From: Chloroflexota bacterium
GTDB lineage: Bacteria > Chloroflexota > Anaerolineae > Anaerolineales > Anaerolineaceae
Reading direction: 5' to 3'
Length of the DNA stretch: 64,000 nt
Assembly (NCBI GenBank): GCA_016838895.1
Contig: JAEKNU010000004.1
Span: 62,001-126,000, forward strand
In this document: positions 54,641 to 60,631 of the stretch, in pieces
How the letters are laid out: each line of letters opens with the position of its first letter
Position numbering within the stretch: the stretch's first letter is position 1
Position numbers and translations under genes: made by a program
The notes under the pieces: generated by a model
Seen by the model: the letters and a program-made list of their open reading frames with translations, nothing else
Databases searched by the model: none
Told to the model about the DNA's origin: nothing

Positions 54641-55886
54641 TCGGCTGTCTTTTGGTTTCAAGAAGTTCTCCAGACTGAATAATGTTTGTAGCGAAATCAA
54701 ACGGATTTACATCTGTGCCAATCATTGCGCCAGCTTCAATCGTGGCACCATCGGGAATAACGGATCCCTTTCCTACCATACTGATCAATAATTTGTTTTT
54801 TATCATACTACCGACACGTGCTTTTTCAGAGACGATGACCTTTTTATCAAGAATGGCTCGTTCCACGATTGCGCCTTGGTTGATGACACCATCTGTAAGA
54901 ATAATGGCATCACGTATCACAGCATTGCTTTTTACCCGAACACCAGGGGATAATATGGAATGAATCACTTTCGCTCCATCTTCAATAATGCAGCCGTCAC
55001 TGATCAGACTGTTGCTTACTTCTGCATTATTCTCAATATAGGCAGGCGGACGCTCCTCAGTACGGGTATGAATAATCCAGGAACGATCATGCAAATTCAA
55101 AGCTGGCGGATGATTTAATAAATCCATTTGAGCCTGCCAGTAGGAATTAATCGTTCCAACATCTACCCAATATCCATTATAGGGGTAGGCGTAAATATTG
55201 AATTTAGATTCAATTAATTTTGGTAAAATATCTTTCCCAAAATCGTGGCTGGAATTCTCATCTAAATGATCTTCCCATAAGGCATCATTAAGAATATTTG
55301 TATTAAATAGATAAACTCCCATATTGGCATTTGTCCCATCGGGATATTTGGGTTTCTCATCAAAAGAGGTGATACGTTGCTCGTCATCAATTTGCATGAT
55401 ACCAAATCTGGATGCGTCTTCACGAGTTACCTGGATGGTTGCTATCGTAAGATCAGCTTCTTTTTCCATATGGAAACGAAGCATGGCTTCATAGTCCATT
55501 GTATAAACATGATCGCCGGATAAAATCAAAACGGTTTCAGGGTTATTGTGTTTTATAAAGGAAAAATTCTGTTGAACCGCATCGGCTGTGCCATTAAACC
55601 AACCCGATGTTGGTGCTTTATAGGGCGTATAAATACGGATGCCACCGGTGAAATCACGATTTAAATCCCATGGACCACCTGCGCCCAGATGTTCTATAAG
55701 GGAATGAGGACGGTATTGAGCAATGATCATCACATCAAAGATGTTTGAATTTACACAGTTAGAGAGGGTGAAATCAATAATGCGATATTTTCCAGCAAAA
55801 GTGACTGCTGGTTTTGTGCGCTTTGCAGTTAATACCCCTAAACGCGTTCCTTCTCCGCCTGCCAGAATGACTGCTCGTGTTTTCAT
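54630..55886 (-). CDS. glgC: Glucose-1-phosphate adenylyltransferase (ADP-glucose synthase)
   Basis: 418 residues. Makes ADP-glucose for glycogen synthesis. N-terminal nucleotidyltransferase: VILAGGEGTRLGVLTAKRTKPAV, FAGKYRIIDFTLSNCVNS, the product-binding VLILSGDHVYTMDY, and DEKPKYP. A left-handed beta-helix hexapeptide domain follows from about residue 290. Its start overlaps the end of glgA by 4 bases (ATGA) and its end overlaps malQ. Confidence 0.97.
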   Translation of the reverse strand: MKTRAVILAGGEGTRLGVLTAKRTKPAVTFAGKYRIIDFTLSNCVNSNIFDVMIIAQYRPHSLIEHLGAGGPWDLNRDFTGGIRIYTPYKAPTSGWFNGTADAVQQNFSFIKHNNPETVLILSGDHVYTMDYEAMLRFHMEKEADLTIATIQVTREDASRFGIMQIDDEQRITSFDEKPKYPDGTNANMGVYLFNTNILNDALWEDHLDENSSHDFGKDILPKLIESKFNIYAYPYNGYWVDVGTINSYWQAQMDLLNHPPALNLHDRSWIIHTRTEERPPAYIENNAEVSNSLISDGCIIEDGAKVIHSILSPGVRVKSNAVIRDAIILTDGVINQGAIVERAILDKKVIVSEKARVGSMIKNKLLISMVGKGSVIPDGATIEAGAMIGTDVNPFDFATNIIQSGELLETKRQPNEL

Positions 55887-57349
55887 GAATGTCTCTCCAA
55901 TAGTTTGAGGTACATTGCTTTATATCGTTCTGCTGAACGATGCCAGGAAAAATCTTTTCGCATAGCATCAATTTGCATCTGTCGCCATTTTCCAGGGTTG
56001 TCTTGATAGACATGCATTGCCAAAGCGATACTTTTACTACAATCATTTGCTTTTGCCGCAGTAAAGAGAAAACCATCAGGGTTTTCTGTTGAAGAATAAT
56101 CTTTGATGGTGTCTTTCAAGCCACCTGTGGCAGTTGCCACAGCCAGGCAACCATATCGCATAGCAAACATCTGTGACAAACCGCAAGGTTCATAGCGTGA
56201 GGGCATGATAATCATATCGCCACCTGCGTAGAGCTTGTGAGCGAGTTCATTGCTGAATTCGGCTAAGCCGACTATTTTTTCAGGCACTTTATTTGCCAAT
56301 GTACGAATGGCTTTTTCCAGCGCTGGATCACCTGTACCCAGAATGATACAGCGCCAATCCTGATCAAGCAACATGTTCAAACTGTCGAGCAATACATCAG
56401 CCCCTTTTTGCCCTGTCAGACGTCCGACCCAGATTAGCAATGGTGTTTTGTTCGATGTACCTGGAAAGTATTTGTCAAACAGAGCTTTTTTGTTGACCAT
56501 GCGCTGATCCAGATTATCAATCGTGTAGTTCTGAGCAAGAAAATGATCAGAAGCAGGATCCCATTCAGTTTGATCAATGCCATTCAGAATTCCGGCAACC
56601 TTGGTCGCCTTTTTCTGCAGGTAGGTATGCAAACCACAACCAAACTCGGGTGTCAATAATTCTTGCGCGTAGCCATTGGATACTGTTAGAATCTGATCCG
56701 CACGACTGATACCCATTGGTAAAGGCAGATCGCGTGCCCATTTTGGCAAGGATAGATTTCTAGATGGTCGGAATCCGAATTTGCGTAATATTTTTCGATT
56801 GGCATTGCCCATATAGGGTAAATTATGAATAGATAGTATTGTTGAAAAGGGTGATTTGCGATTTTTCTTGAAAGCGATTGTTTTTGTTTGATAAACTGCC
56901 AGCGCAGTGTGCCAATCATTGGCGTGATATAAATCTGGCAGGAAATTTATTGTGTCACAAAATGAATGAATCGCCTTTGAAAAAAGACAATACTTAATTA
57001 AATCAACTTGTAAATTGTCTGTATAAGGTGGGGTACTTGAAAGCGATGGACTTTTCAGAAAATATACAGGTAAGGCGGCATTCTGATCCTGAAATACTTC
57101 AATGATTTCATGGGTATTGGCGTATTCCACTACAAGCTCATCGAGCTTTTTAATATTTGTATTGCTCGTATTCATGTTCTTATGAAACGGCATTACCATA
57201 CGAATATCAAAAAACGCTGAATAAAGGTCAGCCAGAATTGGTGGCAGGGACCCTGATACATCTCCCAATCCACCGACTTTACTGTATGGGCTGGATTCCG
57301 CCGTCAGATACAATATTTTTTTCAGACCATTGTCACCAGTAAACGACAT
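55883..57349 (-). CDS. glgA: Glycogen synthase (GT5)
   Basis: 488 residues. Adds glucose from ADP-glucose to glycogen. KVGGLGDV in the N-terminal domain (SSPYSKVGGLGDVSGSLPPIL), FHANDWHTALA-like LYHANDWHTALAVYQ, IHNLPYMG, VGRLTGQKGADVL, and the C-terminal catalytic MPSRYEPCGLSQMFAMRYG. Starts 8 bases after the amidohydrolase-CYTH gene; overlaps glgC by 4. Confidence 0.97.
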   Translation of the reverse strand: MSFTGDNGLKKILYLTAESSPYSKVGGLGDVSGSLPPILADLYSAFFDIRMVMPFHKNMNTSNTNIKKLDELVVEYANTHEIIEVFQDQNAALPVYFLKSPSLSSTPPYTDNLQVDLIKYCLFSKAIHSFCDTINFLPDLYHANDWHTALAVYQTKTIAFKKNRKSPFSTILSIHNLPYMGNANRKILRKFGFRPSRNLSLPKWARDLPLPMGISRADQILTVSNGYAQELLTPEFGCGLHTYLQKKATKVAGILNGIDQTEWDPASDHFLAQNYTIDNLDQRMVNKKALFDKYFPGTSNKTPLLIWVGRLTGQKGADVLLDSLNMLLDQDWRCIILGTGDPALEKAIRTLANKVPEKIVGLAEFSNELAHKLYAGGDMIIMPSRYEPCGLSQMFAMRYGCLAVATATGGLKDTIKDYSSTENPDGFLFTAAKANDCSKSIALAMHVYQDNPGKWRQMQIDAMRKDFSWHRSAERYKAMYLKLLERHS

Positions 57350-57357
57350 AAATCGAC

Positions 57358-59331
57358 TTACCTTTTTTCAACAATTTCAATGTAATCATCGGTGATGATA
57401 TGCTCAATTGAGGCACCAAGCAATTCTAATAGTGCCGGGATCATTTCTGCTTTTACGTCGGCATCACTTCTGGACCAGGTGCGACTTTTTATTTCAAGGA
57501 AGTAACCCAGATCGGGTTTTTCAATTGTATCAATATTGATGAAGAATTCGGTATCCTGAAATTTGATCAAGAATCGTAAACGATCTTTTTCAATTTCAAC
57601 TTCCTGTGCAGGTTTGAAATATTCACGATAGAAGCGTAGTGATTGTGAAGCAGGGGCTAAATATCTACTTCGAGACAGTAACGCTTTATCGCCGAATTGA
57701 TATTCGCGTGAGACACCGATATGTGTAAGGCGGGACCGAACTTGGGTGACTTTGCCTTTATCTCCAACAAAATGATCTTCCCGATAGCGTAATTTACCTT
57801 GTGATGGATTTTCAAAATAGAAATAAGTATCATATTCACGATAATGTCGTTCACGAAGAATCTCTAATTCGGGGCTATTGATTGCCTTTACAATTGGGGC
57901 TGGATTTGTAATACATACTTTGGTTTGTACTTCAAAGGATTCAGCTTCTGAGGCACCGCCAATGGCAATCAATTTAGATAATACTGATTGTTCACGCTCA
58001 ATCAGGAAAGTATCAATTTCTTTGGCAAGTTTATTGGCATCTTTCAGCAAACTTTTTTCATCCAATGTTTGCAGCTCTTTCTCCAAGAAAACCCATTTTC
58101 CATTAATCATGACGTCGGTAACATCAGTGGATTTTGCAGCATAAACAATTTGGGCATACACAGAATCAGGATCTCTTTGGAAACGGGGTGAATTATGGAC
58201 AGGTGAAACATCAATAATAATCAGATCGGCTTTTTTACCAGGCTCCAGTGAACCAATCTGCTCCTGCAAATGTACGGCTTTTGCTCCCACGGTGGTAGCC
58301 AGGGCAAGTACGTCACGTGCAGGAAGTGAAGTCGGATCACCTGTACTCACTTTTGATAAGAAAGAAGCCAGCCGAATTTCCTCAAACATATCCAAATCGT
58401 TATTTGAAGCAGGACCATCTGTGCCAATGCCTACATTGACACCTAACTCGAGCATACGCTGTACCTGTGCAATCCCTGAGGCCAATTTCATATTTGAGGA
58501 GGGATTGTGAGCAATGCCTGCATTAGCGTGACTCAAACTGCGCATTTCACCCTCATCAATATGGACGCAATGCGCAGCAATTAATTTTGTATCCAACAAG
58601 GTTTGTTTTTTCACATAAGGTACAACAGGCATACCAATATTTTTACGCATTTCTTCAACTTCAGTGGCAGTTTCAGATATATGGATATGCAATGGAACAT
58701 CAAATTCTCTGGCTAAGGCTGCGGAAGCTTGCAGAATTTCATCGGTACAAGTATATGGTGCATGTGGGGCGATCGCCGGTGTGATTAGCGGATGATTTTT
58801 CCACTTCTCAATAAACTTTCTGGCATAGGCCAAACCTTCTTCATAAGATGCAGAATCGGGTGTTGGGAATTTTAATATGGATTCACCACATATTGCTCGC
58901 ATTCCGGCTTTTACAGTTGCCTCGGCGACATCATCTTCAAAATAATACATATCAGCAAAGGTGGTGATACCACTTTTTATCATTTCTGCACATGCCAATA
59001 ATGTGCCCAATTGTACAAATTCGGGTGTAACATATTCGCGTTCAACTGGCATCATATAGCCTAAGAGCCATACATCAAGTCGCAGATCATCGGCCAAGCC
59101 CCGTAATAGTGTCATGGGGACATGGGTATGTGCATTGACAAAACCCGGCATGAGTACTTTTTCATTACAATCGATAATTGAATCTGCTGAAAACTTCTCT
59201 AAAATTTCTTTTTCTTCACCCACAGCCAGAATTTCATCCTTCTTAATTGCAATTGCACCAGGATAAAAAGTTTGGAATGATTCGTCCATGGATAAGATAC
59301 ATGCATTTTTTAATAATATATCTGCTTTCAT
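57358..59331 (-). CDS. MTA/SAH-deaminase-like amidohydrolase fused to a CYTH domain
   Basis: 657 residues. Residues 1-435 are a full metal-dependent amidohydrolase of the MtaD/TrzA type, with metal ligands His68/His70 (VNAHTHVPM), His217 with Glu220 (IHISETATEVEE), His254 (AAHCVHID) and Asp305 (GIGTDGPASN). Relatives deaminate 5'-methylthioadenosine, S-adenosylhomocysteine or similar purines. Residues about 460-657 are a CYTH/triphosphate-tunnel domain: EVQTK (467-471) where EXEXK is usual, YDTYFYFENP, LRYRED, and DTIEKPDLGYFLEIKSR where the family usually has a second acidic residue at the Lys. The fusion is unusual. Two changed positions may make the CYTH part a binding module. Gene lies between cinA (26 bases) and glgA (8 bases). 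Confidence 0.9.
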   Translation of the reverse strand: MKADILLKNACILSMDESFQTFYPGAIAIKKDEILAVGEEKEILEKFSADSIIDCNEKVLMPGFVNAHTHVPMTLLRGLADDLRLDVWLLGYMMPVEREYVTPEFVQLGTLLACAEMIKSGITTFADMYYFEDDVAEATVKAGMRAICGESILKFPTPDSASYEEGLAYARKFIEKWKNHPLITPAIAPHAPYTCTDEILQASAALAREFDVPLHIHISETATEVEEMRKNIGMPVVPYVKKQTLLDTKLIAAHCVHIDEGEMRSLSHANAGIAHNPSSNMKLASGIAQVQRMLELGVNVGIGTDGPASNNDLDMFEEIRLASFLSKVSTGDPTSLPARDVLALATTVGAKAVHLQEQIGSLEPGKKADLIIIDVSPVHNSPRFQRDPDSVYAQIVYAAKSTDVTDVMINGKWVFLEKELQTLDEKSLLKDANKLAKEIDTFLIEREQSVLSKLIAIGGASEAESFEVQTKVCITNPAPIVKAINSPELEILRERHYREYDTYFYFENPSQGKLRYREDHFVGDKGKVTQVRSRLTHIGVSREYQFGDKALLSRSRYLAPASQSLRFYREYFKPAQEVEIEKDRLRFLIKFQDTEFFINIDTIEKPDLGYFLEIKSRTWSRSDADVKAEMIPALLELLGASIEHIITDDYIEIVEKR

Positions 59332-59357: not shown

Positions 59358-60497
59358 TTATGATTTTAGAATTGAGCGTATATATCCTAATTCATAGTGA
59401 TAAACCCATTGAGGAAAATCCTCTTTTGGACCCATAAAACTACGCAAAATTGGGGTTTCATGTGCAAAATCAGAATTATATATGAGTAATATCATTTTAT
59501 CAATTTTATGAAAAACCGCAAAAGCGATTTTTTTTGTGCTCTCTAAGGAGTTGAATTTTACCATTTCTTTGACAAAATCATCTTCATTCTCTATCCTATT
59601 TTCAGGCATAATATGACATTGGGGAGAAGATAAATTGAATAGTTCGGGTATTTGGTGGTTAAAAGGATAGATCGTGTAAATTTGGTCTTGGTTGTTGAAT
59701 AATGCTTCAACAACTTGGTGGAGGGTTTCACCATCTTCTGCAAAAATGTAGTCGGATAAACGTTCATGAATGATGCTTTTAAATTCAGAAATACTGGCCT
59801 CAGCGGATTCTTTCGATAATGACTTTGCAGTGATCCGGATATCGATTTGCCCGGCGTGGGCAGAGATACCTACCGTGGGATTATTGGATTTCTCTAATTC
59901 GGAAATTTCTTGATCGACCAGTGATTCACCAATGCCAATAAGATGAATTGTTTTTGTCATTATGGTGGCTTTTTCCGGAAAGGATTGCTCAATAAGTTTC
60001 TTGAGATGATTCACAAACAAGTATTCCATCTCTTTCGGTACACCAGGCAGGCTGGCTGTGAGTTGATTATTTTGATAGATATAAAATGCTGGTGCGGATC
60101 CGACTGCATTATTTATAACCTTTGCATTTTCTGGTAAATATGCCTGACGCTTGTTGTTTTCTGAGGCGACACGATTATTATCGAGGAAACGTCGTTTAAT
60201 ATGTTCCCATAATTCGGGGTGAAAGATTAATGGCACATGGTAAGCTTTCGCAATTGCACTTCGGGTTGGGTCATCAATGGTTGGTCCTAACCCGCCGGTG
60301 GTGATTACGATATCAGCGCGCTGATGTGCTTCACGAACCAATTCAGCAATACGATCTTCGTTATCACCGATTACAGTCGTGCGATACAAATCAATACCCA
60401 AATTGCGTAATTGATTTGCAAGAAAGTACGTATTTGTATCCAGCGTGACGCCCAGCAATAATTCTGTACCAATTGCGATGATTTCTGCTTTTGCCAT
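59358..60497 (-). CDS. cinA: CinA-family protein with degenerate C-terminal domain
   Basis: 379 residues from ATG 60497 (GAGGAA upstream). N-terminal molybdopterin-binding-like domain: AEIIAIGTELLLGVTLDTNTYFL, VITTGGLGPTIDDPT, LPGVPKEME, then the middle CinA domain (about 165-250). CinA proteins hydrolyse ADP-ribose-type nucleotides (N-terminal part) and deamidate NMN (C-terminal PncC part). Here the C-terminal 120 residues lack the PncC motif with the catalytic Ser (AESCTGG-like) but keep a recognisable end. NMN deamidase activity is probably lost. First gene of the run to malQ. Confidence 0.88.
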   Translation of the reverse strand: MAKAEIIAIGTELLLGVTLDTNTYFLANQLRNLGIDLYRTTVIGDNEDRIAELVREAHQRADIVITTGGLGPTIDDPTRSAIAKAYHVPLIFHPELWEHIKRRFLDNNRVASENNKRQAYLPENAKVINNAVGSAPAFYIYQNNQLTASLPGVPKEMEYLFVNHLKKLIEQSFPEKATIMTKTIHLIGIGESLVDQEISELEKSNNPTVGISAHAGQIDIRITAKSLSKESAEASISEFKSIIHERLSDYIFAEDGETLHQVVEALFNNQDQIYTIYPFNHQIPELFNLSSPQCHIMPENRIENEDDFVKEMVKFNSLESTKKIAFAVFHKIDKMILLIYNSDFAHETPILRSFMGPKEDFPQWVYHYELGYIRSILKS

Positions 60498-60631
60498 TTG
60501 TTGATTCCTCATCTGTTTTGGGATACATAAGTGTTTTGATGAACTATGAATAAATCGCCTTGCAAAAACATGATTGAACGGTTATCCTTTTTGAAGGATT
60601 TTAAGAATATCACAATTCTGGACTGAAATGT

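Follow-up and report, generated by a model that had tools for sequence, protein, structure and literature searches.

Chloroflexota encode an amidohydrolase fused to a CYTH domain with altered metal-site motifs, a candidate phosphate sensor on a nucleoside deaminase

CYTH (triphosphate-tunnel) domains occur in every domain of life, and the physiological role of most of them is unknown (PMC8233210). In the archaeal enzyme SaTTM one metal ion (metal 1) is held by E7 and E135 and a second (metal 2) by E5, E7 and E137, while the phosphates are bound by R56, R58, K69, K110 and R112, and water by D38xY40 (PMC8233210). Mutation of the metal-binding acids strongly reduces hydrolysis in AtTTM3 and ygiF, and yeast Vtc4p has metal site 1 only (PMC4641920). 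Two-domain proteins are also described: AtTTM1 and AtTTM2 (7z67), of a type known from plants and Amoebozoa, join a kinase-type domain to a tunnel that lacks ExExK and ExE, keeps RxR and DxY, and is still active on pyrophosphate (PMC8233210). In other proteins the CYTH part is likewise one module of a larger chain, fused to CHAD, HD hydrolase, exopolyphosphatase or nucleotidyl kinase domains, and no amidohydrolase is among the fusion partners listed in the passages of PMC8233210 that were consulted.

The protein described here resembles AtTTM1 and AtTTM2 in having two domains and a tunnel that departs from ExExK and ExE with RxR and DxY retained, but its partner domain is an amidohydrolase rather than a kinase. 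It is encoded in a window of 64,000 nucleotides (contig JAEKNU010000004.1, positions 62,001 to 126,000) from an Anaerolineaceae member of the Chloroflexota, and consists of the following parts:

57358-59331, minus strand: open reading frame of the fused gene, ATG start, 657 aa, one intact frame
58012-59331, minus strand: amidohydrolase domain, residues 1-440, MtaD/SAH/adenosine deaminase-like (from Pfam, NCBIfam, solved relatives, Foldseek and conservation)
57949-58011, minus strand: linker helix, residues 441-461 (from the structure model and conservation)
57361-57948, minus strand: CYTH / triphosphate-tunnel domain, residues 462-657 (from relatives' profile matches, the model and fold matches)
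57919-57933, minus strand: altered ExExK, E467-V-Q469-T-K471, second Glu replaced by Gln (from the sequence, 130/130 alignment rows and profile mapping)
57487-57495, minus strand: altered ExE, E613-I-K615, second Glu replaced by Lys (from the sequence, 130/130 alignment rows and profile mapping)

Literature searches, in which the few papers returned were judged unrelated from their listings, gave no description of a CYTH domain, of altered active site or otherwise, paired with an amidohydrolase or deaminase, in agreement with the initial annotation, which knew of none.

The fusion of the two domains in one gene is confirmed. Residues 59-414 match PF01979 (Amidohydro_1) at 9e-79. The C-terminal part of the host protein itself gives no Pfam match even at E 10; the corresponding parts of 34 out of 81 relatives match PF01928 (CYTH) when E values up to 1 are allowed, the best at 6.2e-7, and nine fused proteins lie above the Pfam curated cut-off for this family in whole-genome scans. 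A sequence search of the PDB with the CYTH profile gave no match. The structure model of the CYTH domain, built with 81 sequences (mean pLDDT 87.8), is an eight-stranded tunnel barrel whose top Foldseek matches are CYTH, TTM and class IV adenylyl cyclase structures, and the model of the full-length protein has a mean pLDDT of 90.6. With VIA-align 2 the domain superimposes on archaeal PH1819 (2een; Z 17.6, 169 residues, 2.5 A) and SaTTM (7ns9; Z 16.6, 167 residues, 2.2 A), which share its barrel fold, and on the class IV adenylyl cyclase CyaB (3n0z; Z 16.4). The view taken from the sequence at the outset, that an amidohydrolase is joined in frame to a CYTH domain, is thus borne out by Pfam, by the relatives' PF01928 matches and by a confident fold model.

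That the join is a product of sequencing or assembly was weighed as well, since the two halves of one near relative (G450, L190:1695-3675) overlap in different frames at the junction, between cinA-like and glgA-like genes; this may be a sequencing frame error or a genuine split. The same architecture recurs in one frame in well above 100 genomes, each assembled separately, which rules out a sequencing-error join and leaves an artefact with a negligible probability. In a species-wide scan that yielded 577 related stretches, the full-length fusion was encoded in each of the best 80 loci kept for analysis, all of them titled Chloroflexota or lineages within Chloroflexota. The CYTH part occurs in 89 of 400 Chloroflexota genomes, extending to families beyond the host's own class, with 90 matches in total. 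Open frames of at least 657 aa contain 88 of these (50 of the 90 were inspected over their full length, the others by frame length alone); the remaining two (G387 and G142) run off the end of a contig and have their missing half on a different one, and two of the 90 carry one in-frame stop. One genome of the host's class (G304) has two copies of the fused gene, on contigs C53 and C121 (L114 and L115), and the other 88 positive genomes have one each. Among 101 near relatives, 91 gave a full-length match, two a partial one (G486 and G443), one the two-frame arrangement noted above, and for seven none was listed. A plasmid search with the CYTH part gave no match.

The fused deaminases share a single origin. 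In a tree that took 33 of the 130 aligned fused rows as input they form one clade (support 100/99) beside four unfused deaminases from methylthioadenosine (MTA) operons, separate from the deaminase of the host's own MTA operon. No close unfused relative was seen in nine genomes without the fused gene (G176, G088, G128, G208, G276, G017, G011, G053 and G073), since the best amidohydrolase match in them is 31-40% identical.

The closest solved relatives of the N-terminal half are MTA, SAH and adenosine deaminases, with 4f0r at 2e-93; Foldseek matched 3lnp and 4f0r at 37-39% identity and 1.5-1.6 A. The structures 4f0r, 4gbd and TM0936 (1p1m) share its amidohydrolase fold (1.5-3.3 A rmsd, 33-39% identity) and its metal and catalytic residues, but have no CYTH part. 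H68, H70, H217, E220, H254 and D305 are invariant in 130/130 rows, and E97 and H190 likewise in the aligned fused rows; we take all eight to be metal-binding, catalytic or nucleoside-contact positions of the TM0936 type. The best NCBIfam models for the fused protein are of the MtaD/N-ethylammeline-chlorohydrolase-like kind, and it stays below the equivalog cut-off of each (NF012037, 322.9 against 779 bits; NF005557, 372.5 against 522; NF006549, 462.1 against 540). The deaminase half is predicted to act on 6-aminopurine nucleosides, with adenosine, MTA, SAH and 5'-deoxyadenosine as candidates.

The host genome also encodes a separate, unfused deaminase of 438 aa, 34-35% identical to the fused one, which lies beside genes matching MTA phosphorylase and methylthioribose-1-phosphate isomerase (MtnA-like) models. 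This unfused MtaD sits in an MTA-salvage operon, which makes the fused protein a second paralogue; no neighbour indicating such an operon was found among the neighbour clusters of the fused gene. The host's AhcY scores above its cut-off, and with the MTA-operon deaminase and AhcY present, MTA and SAH are probably already served by dedicated enzymes. The likeness to MtaD and SAH deaminases proposed from the sequence therefore stands on Pfam and solved relatives, whereas an MtaD role is doubtful, given the separate deaminase that adjoins the phosphorylase and isomerase genes. Labelling the fused proteins simply as N-ethylammeline chlorohydrolase or MtaD would call for caution. The salvage cluster was seen in the host (L169/L175, contig C5) and at two other loci (L191 and L193), and comprises an MTAP-like gene, a membrane protein of 277-282 aa, the unfused deaminase and an MtnA-like gene, some of these names being given by eye; at the two other loci an extra gene resembling short-chain dehydrogenases lies in between.

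It could be that the true substrate of the fused deaminase is phosphorylated and that the tunnel holds what this deaminase converts or releases, for example a nucleotide derivative, by its phosphate tail. The two halves are strictly co-inherited (Mantel r 0.88, reached in 0 of 999 permutations, a value that shared descent alone also gives), and MTA already has its unfused enzyme in the host, but the relatives of known structure, 4f0r and 4gbd, are nucleoside deaminases, and we consider such anchoring quite unlikely. The residues of the tunnel were compared with those of SaTTM on the basis of profile alignment to Chloroflexota CYTH proteins (probability 95-97%) and motif order.

The metal 1 positions E7 and E135 correspond to Q469 and E613, and the metal 2 positions E5, E7 and E137 to E467, Q469 and K615. 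At the phosphate positions stand R515, R517, I538, K582 and R584, and DxY is D501xY503. The fused domain thus keeps the equivalents of E5, DxY, RxR, K110xR112 and E135 of SaTTM, but has Gln for E7, Lys for E137, an aliphatic residue, Thr or Met for K69, and a deaminase as partner. The triphosphatase motif ExExK reads E-x-Q-x-K and the TTM metal motif ExE reads E-x-K in 130/130 aligned fused rows, an alignment that contains near-copies (at least one identical pair; an hhalign filter kept 101). RxR (R515/R517), KxR (K582/R584) and DxY (D501/Y503) are likewise kept in 130/130 rows, and the invariant positions of the domain include E467, Q469, K471, D501, Y503, R515, R517, K582, R584, R586, N599, D601, E613 and K615. 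The lysine of LTxK (K69 of SaTTM and ygiF) is lost, position 538 being I, L, V, T or M across the 130 rows. For comparison, CYTH proteins from 30 stretches, 28 of them readable in frame, have the second Glu of ExExK in 28/28 and the first in 25/28. The signature EVQTK at residues 467-471 and the lysine in place of the late acidic residue (K615), both read from the sequence at the start, are accordingly present in the translation, and their altered residues, Q469 and K615, are the same in 130/130 rows.

Of the invariant CYTH residues, 16 out of 17 share parity and so lie on one strand face; of 20000 random placements, 75 did as well. Such one-face conservation is expected of a selected tunnel interior rather than of a decayed domain. 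It also bears on the idea that the barrel is a scaffold that mediates oligomerisation or contacts to other proteins and binds no small ligand, like Med18/Med20 of the Mediator, which have the same fold: Mediator subunits are among the fold matches (7emf_R, Z 13.3), but the conserved positions are chiefly charged residues of one strand face and not of the surface, and a purely structural barrel seems to us improbable. Since the basic, anion-binding interior is kept and the second metal site is lost, the domain is predicted to bind its ligand without two-metal hydrolysis, and it would retain phosphate-anion binding in the absence of the hydrolytic second site. The initial annotation had suggested that the tunnel may bind rather than cleave, and the residues that are altered in 130/130 rows, which map to the catalytic second metal site, lend this support at the level of sequence.

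The main rival to a sensing tunnel is a bifunctional enzyme, in which the CYTH half would still catalyse a reaction, relying on metal site 1 alone or on altered chemistry. E613 (the metal-1 glutamate), R515 (the equivalent of ygiF R56, of the catalytic type), DxY and KxR are all invariant, and precedents exist in the pyrophosphatase-like AtTTM1/2 (PMC8233210) and in the transfer reaction of Vtc4p (PMC4641920). As AtTTM1/2 act without the motifs and Vtc4p has only the first metal site, loss of the motifs should not by itself be taken as proof of inactivity. On the other hand, the metal-2 residues E7 and E137 and the lysine K69 are all replaced, and mutations of such acids strongly cut hydrolysis in AtTTM3 and ygiF (PMC4641920). 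The HF motif of class IV adenylyl cyclases, expected four residues ahead of ExExK, is not found at 461-462, position 462 being E, Q, R or L, and the W/YxRxR of thiamine triphosphatases is absent in 121/130 rows (nine rows have W or Y at position 513, where the host protein has K). CyaB shares the fold and, like the fused domain, lacks the second Glu of ExE (PMC8233210), but the fused domain differs from it by the absence of HF, by Lys in place of Ala, and by retention of the first Arg of RxR. A one-metal or altered enzyme is possible and, in our judgement, somewhat unlikely.

The reading we put first, tentatively and at slightly less than an even chance, is that a non-hydrolytic, ligand-sensing tunnel tunes a nucleoside deaminase. 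The deaminase half would act on a 6-aminopurine nucleoside, the C-terminal CYTH tunnel would bind a ligand that carries a triphosphate or polyphosphate and would not cleave it by two-metal hydrolysis, and the ligand-binding state would be passed to the deaminase via the conserved linker helix, in which F442, E447 and K453 are invariant in the family alignment. In a more specific and rather doubtful variant, the former triphosphatase tunnel would bind a phosphate compound and tune a deaminase that clears adenosine-type by-products of the same metabolism; the candidate ligand would be tripolyphosphate from the synthesis of S-adenosylmethionine or adenosylcobalamin. A literature search on tripolyphosphate together with by-products of S-adenosylmethionine, judged from its listing, returned nothing useful. 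To our knowledge no CYTH domain is known as an allosteric ligand sensor, and this one, if the proposal is true, would be the first shown to act in this way, and a widespread one in a bacterial phylum. A CYTH domain with two fixed metal-site changes, strictly selected in many Chloroflexota, is here tied to an enzyme that is easy to assay, so the question of a tunnel as phosphate sensor can be tested directly through deaminase kinetics.

The genes around the fused gene in the window are as follows:

59358-60512, minus strand: CinA-like gene, directly upstream (COG1058 part matched, residues 7-277)
55883-57349, minus strand: glgA, downstream, with an 8-base gap (57350-57357) from the fused gene to its start codon
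49331-50089, plus strand: polyphosphate-glucose phosphotransferase (NF045942 above cut-off), about 7.3 kb from the fused gene

The coordinates agree with the earlier reading of the fused gene as lying 8 bases before glgA with polyphosphate glucokinase nearby, and the same stretch also holds glgC and malQ. Control of glycogen or polyphosphate storage was suggested by these neighbours. Across 97 of 100 loci with the gene called (L008, L035 and L057 were dropped by the ORF filter), glgA is downstream in at least 26 (median gap 19) and in 0/20 distant loci, and a polyphosphate glucokinase homologue is within reach in 11/97. These counts rule out a glycogen operon link as a general rule, the storage connection proposed at first is not upheld, and a role in storage control is very improbable. 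The commonest neighbour is the CinA-like gene, directly upstream in at least 64/97 loci (median gap 31) and in 0/20 distant loci; like that for glgA this count is a lower bound, because some loci are short contigs. A CinA link as mechanism was set aside, being strong in close relatives and absent from the 20 distant loci; in the window, profile searches did not match the NMN deamidase half of the CinA-like gene. As the neighbours differ between close and distant loci, with no gene common enough to both, no pathway is named from context. After the fused gene, four of the 20 distant loci (L127, L129, L130 and L131) carry a gene that by eye resembles CoaE (dephospho-CoA kinase), with a median of 16 bases in between.
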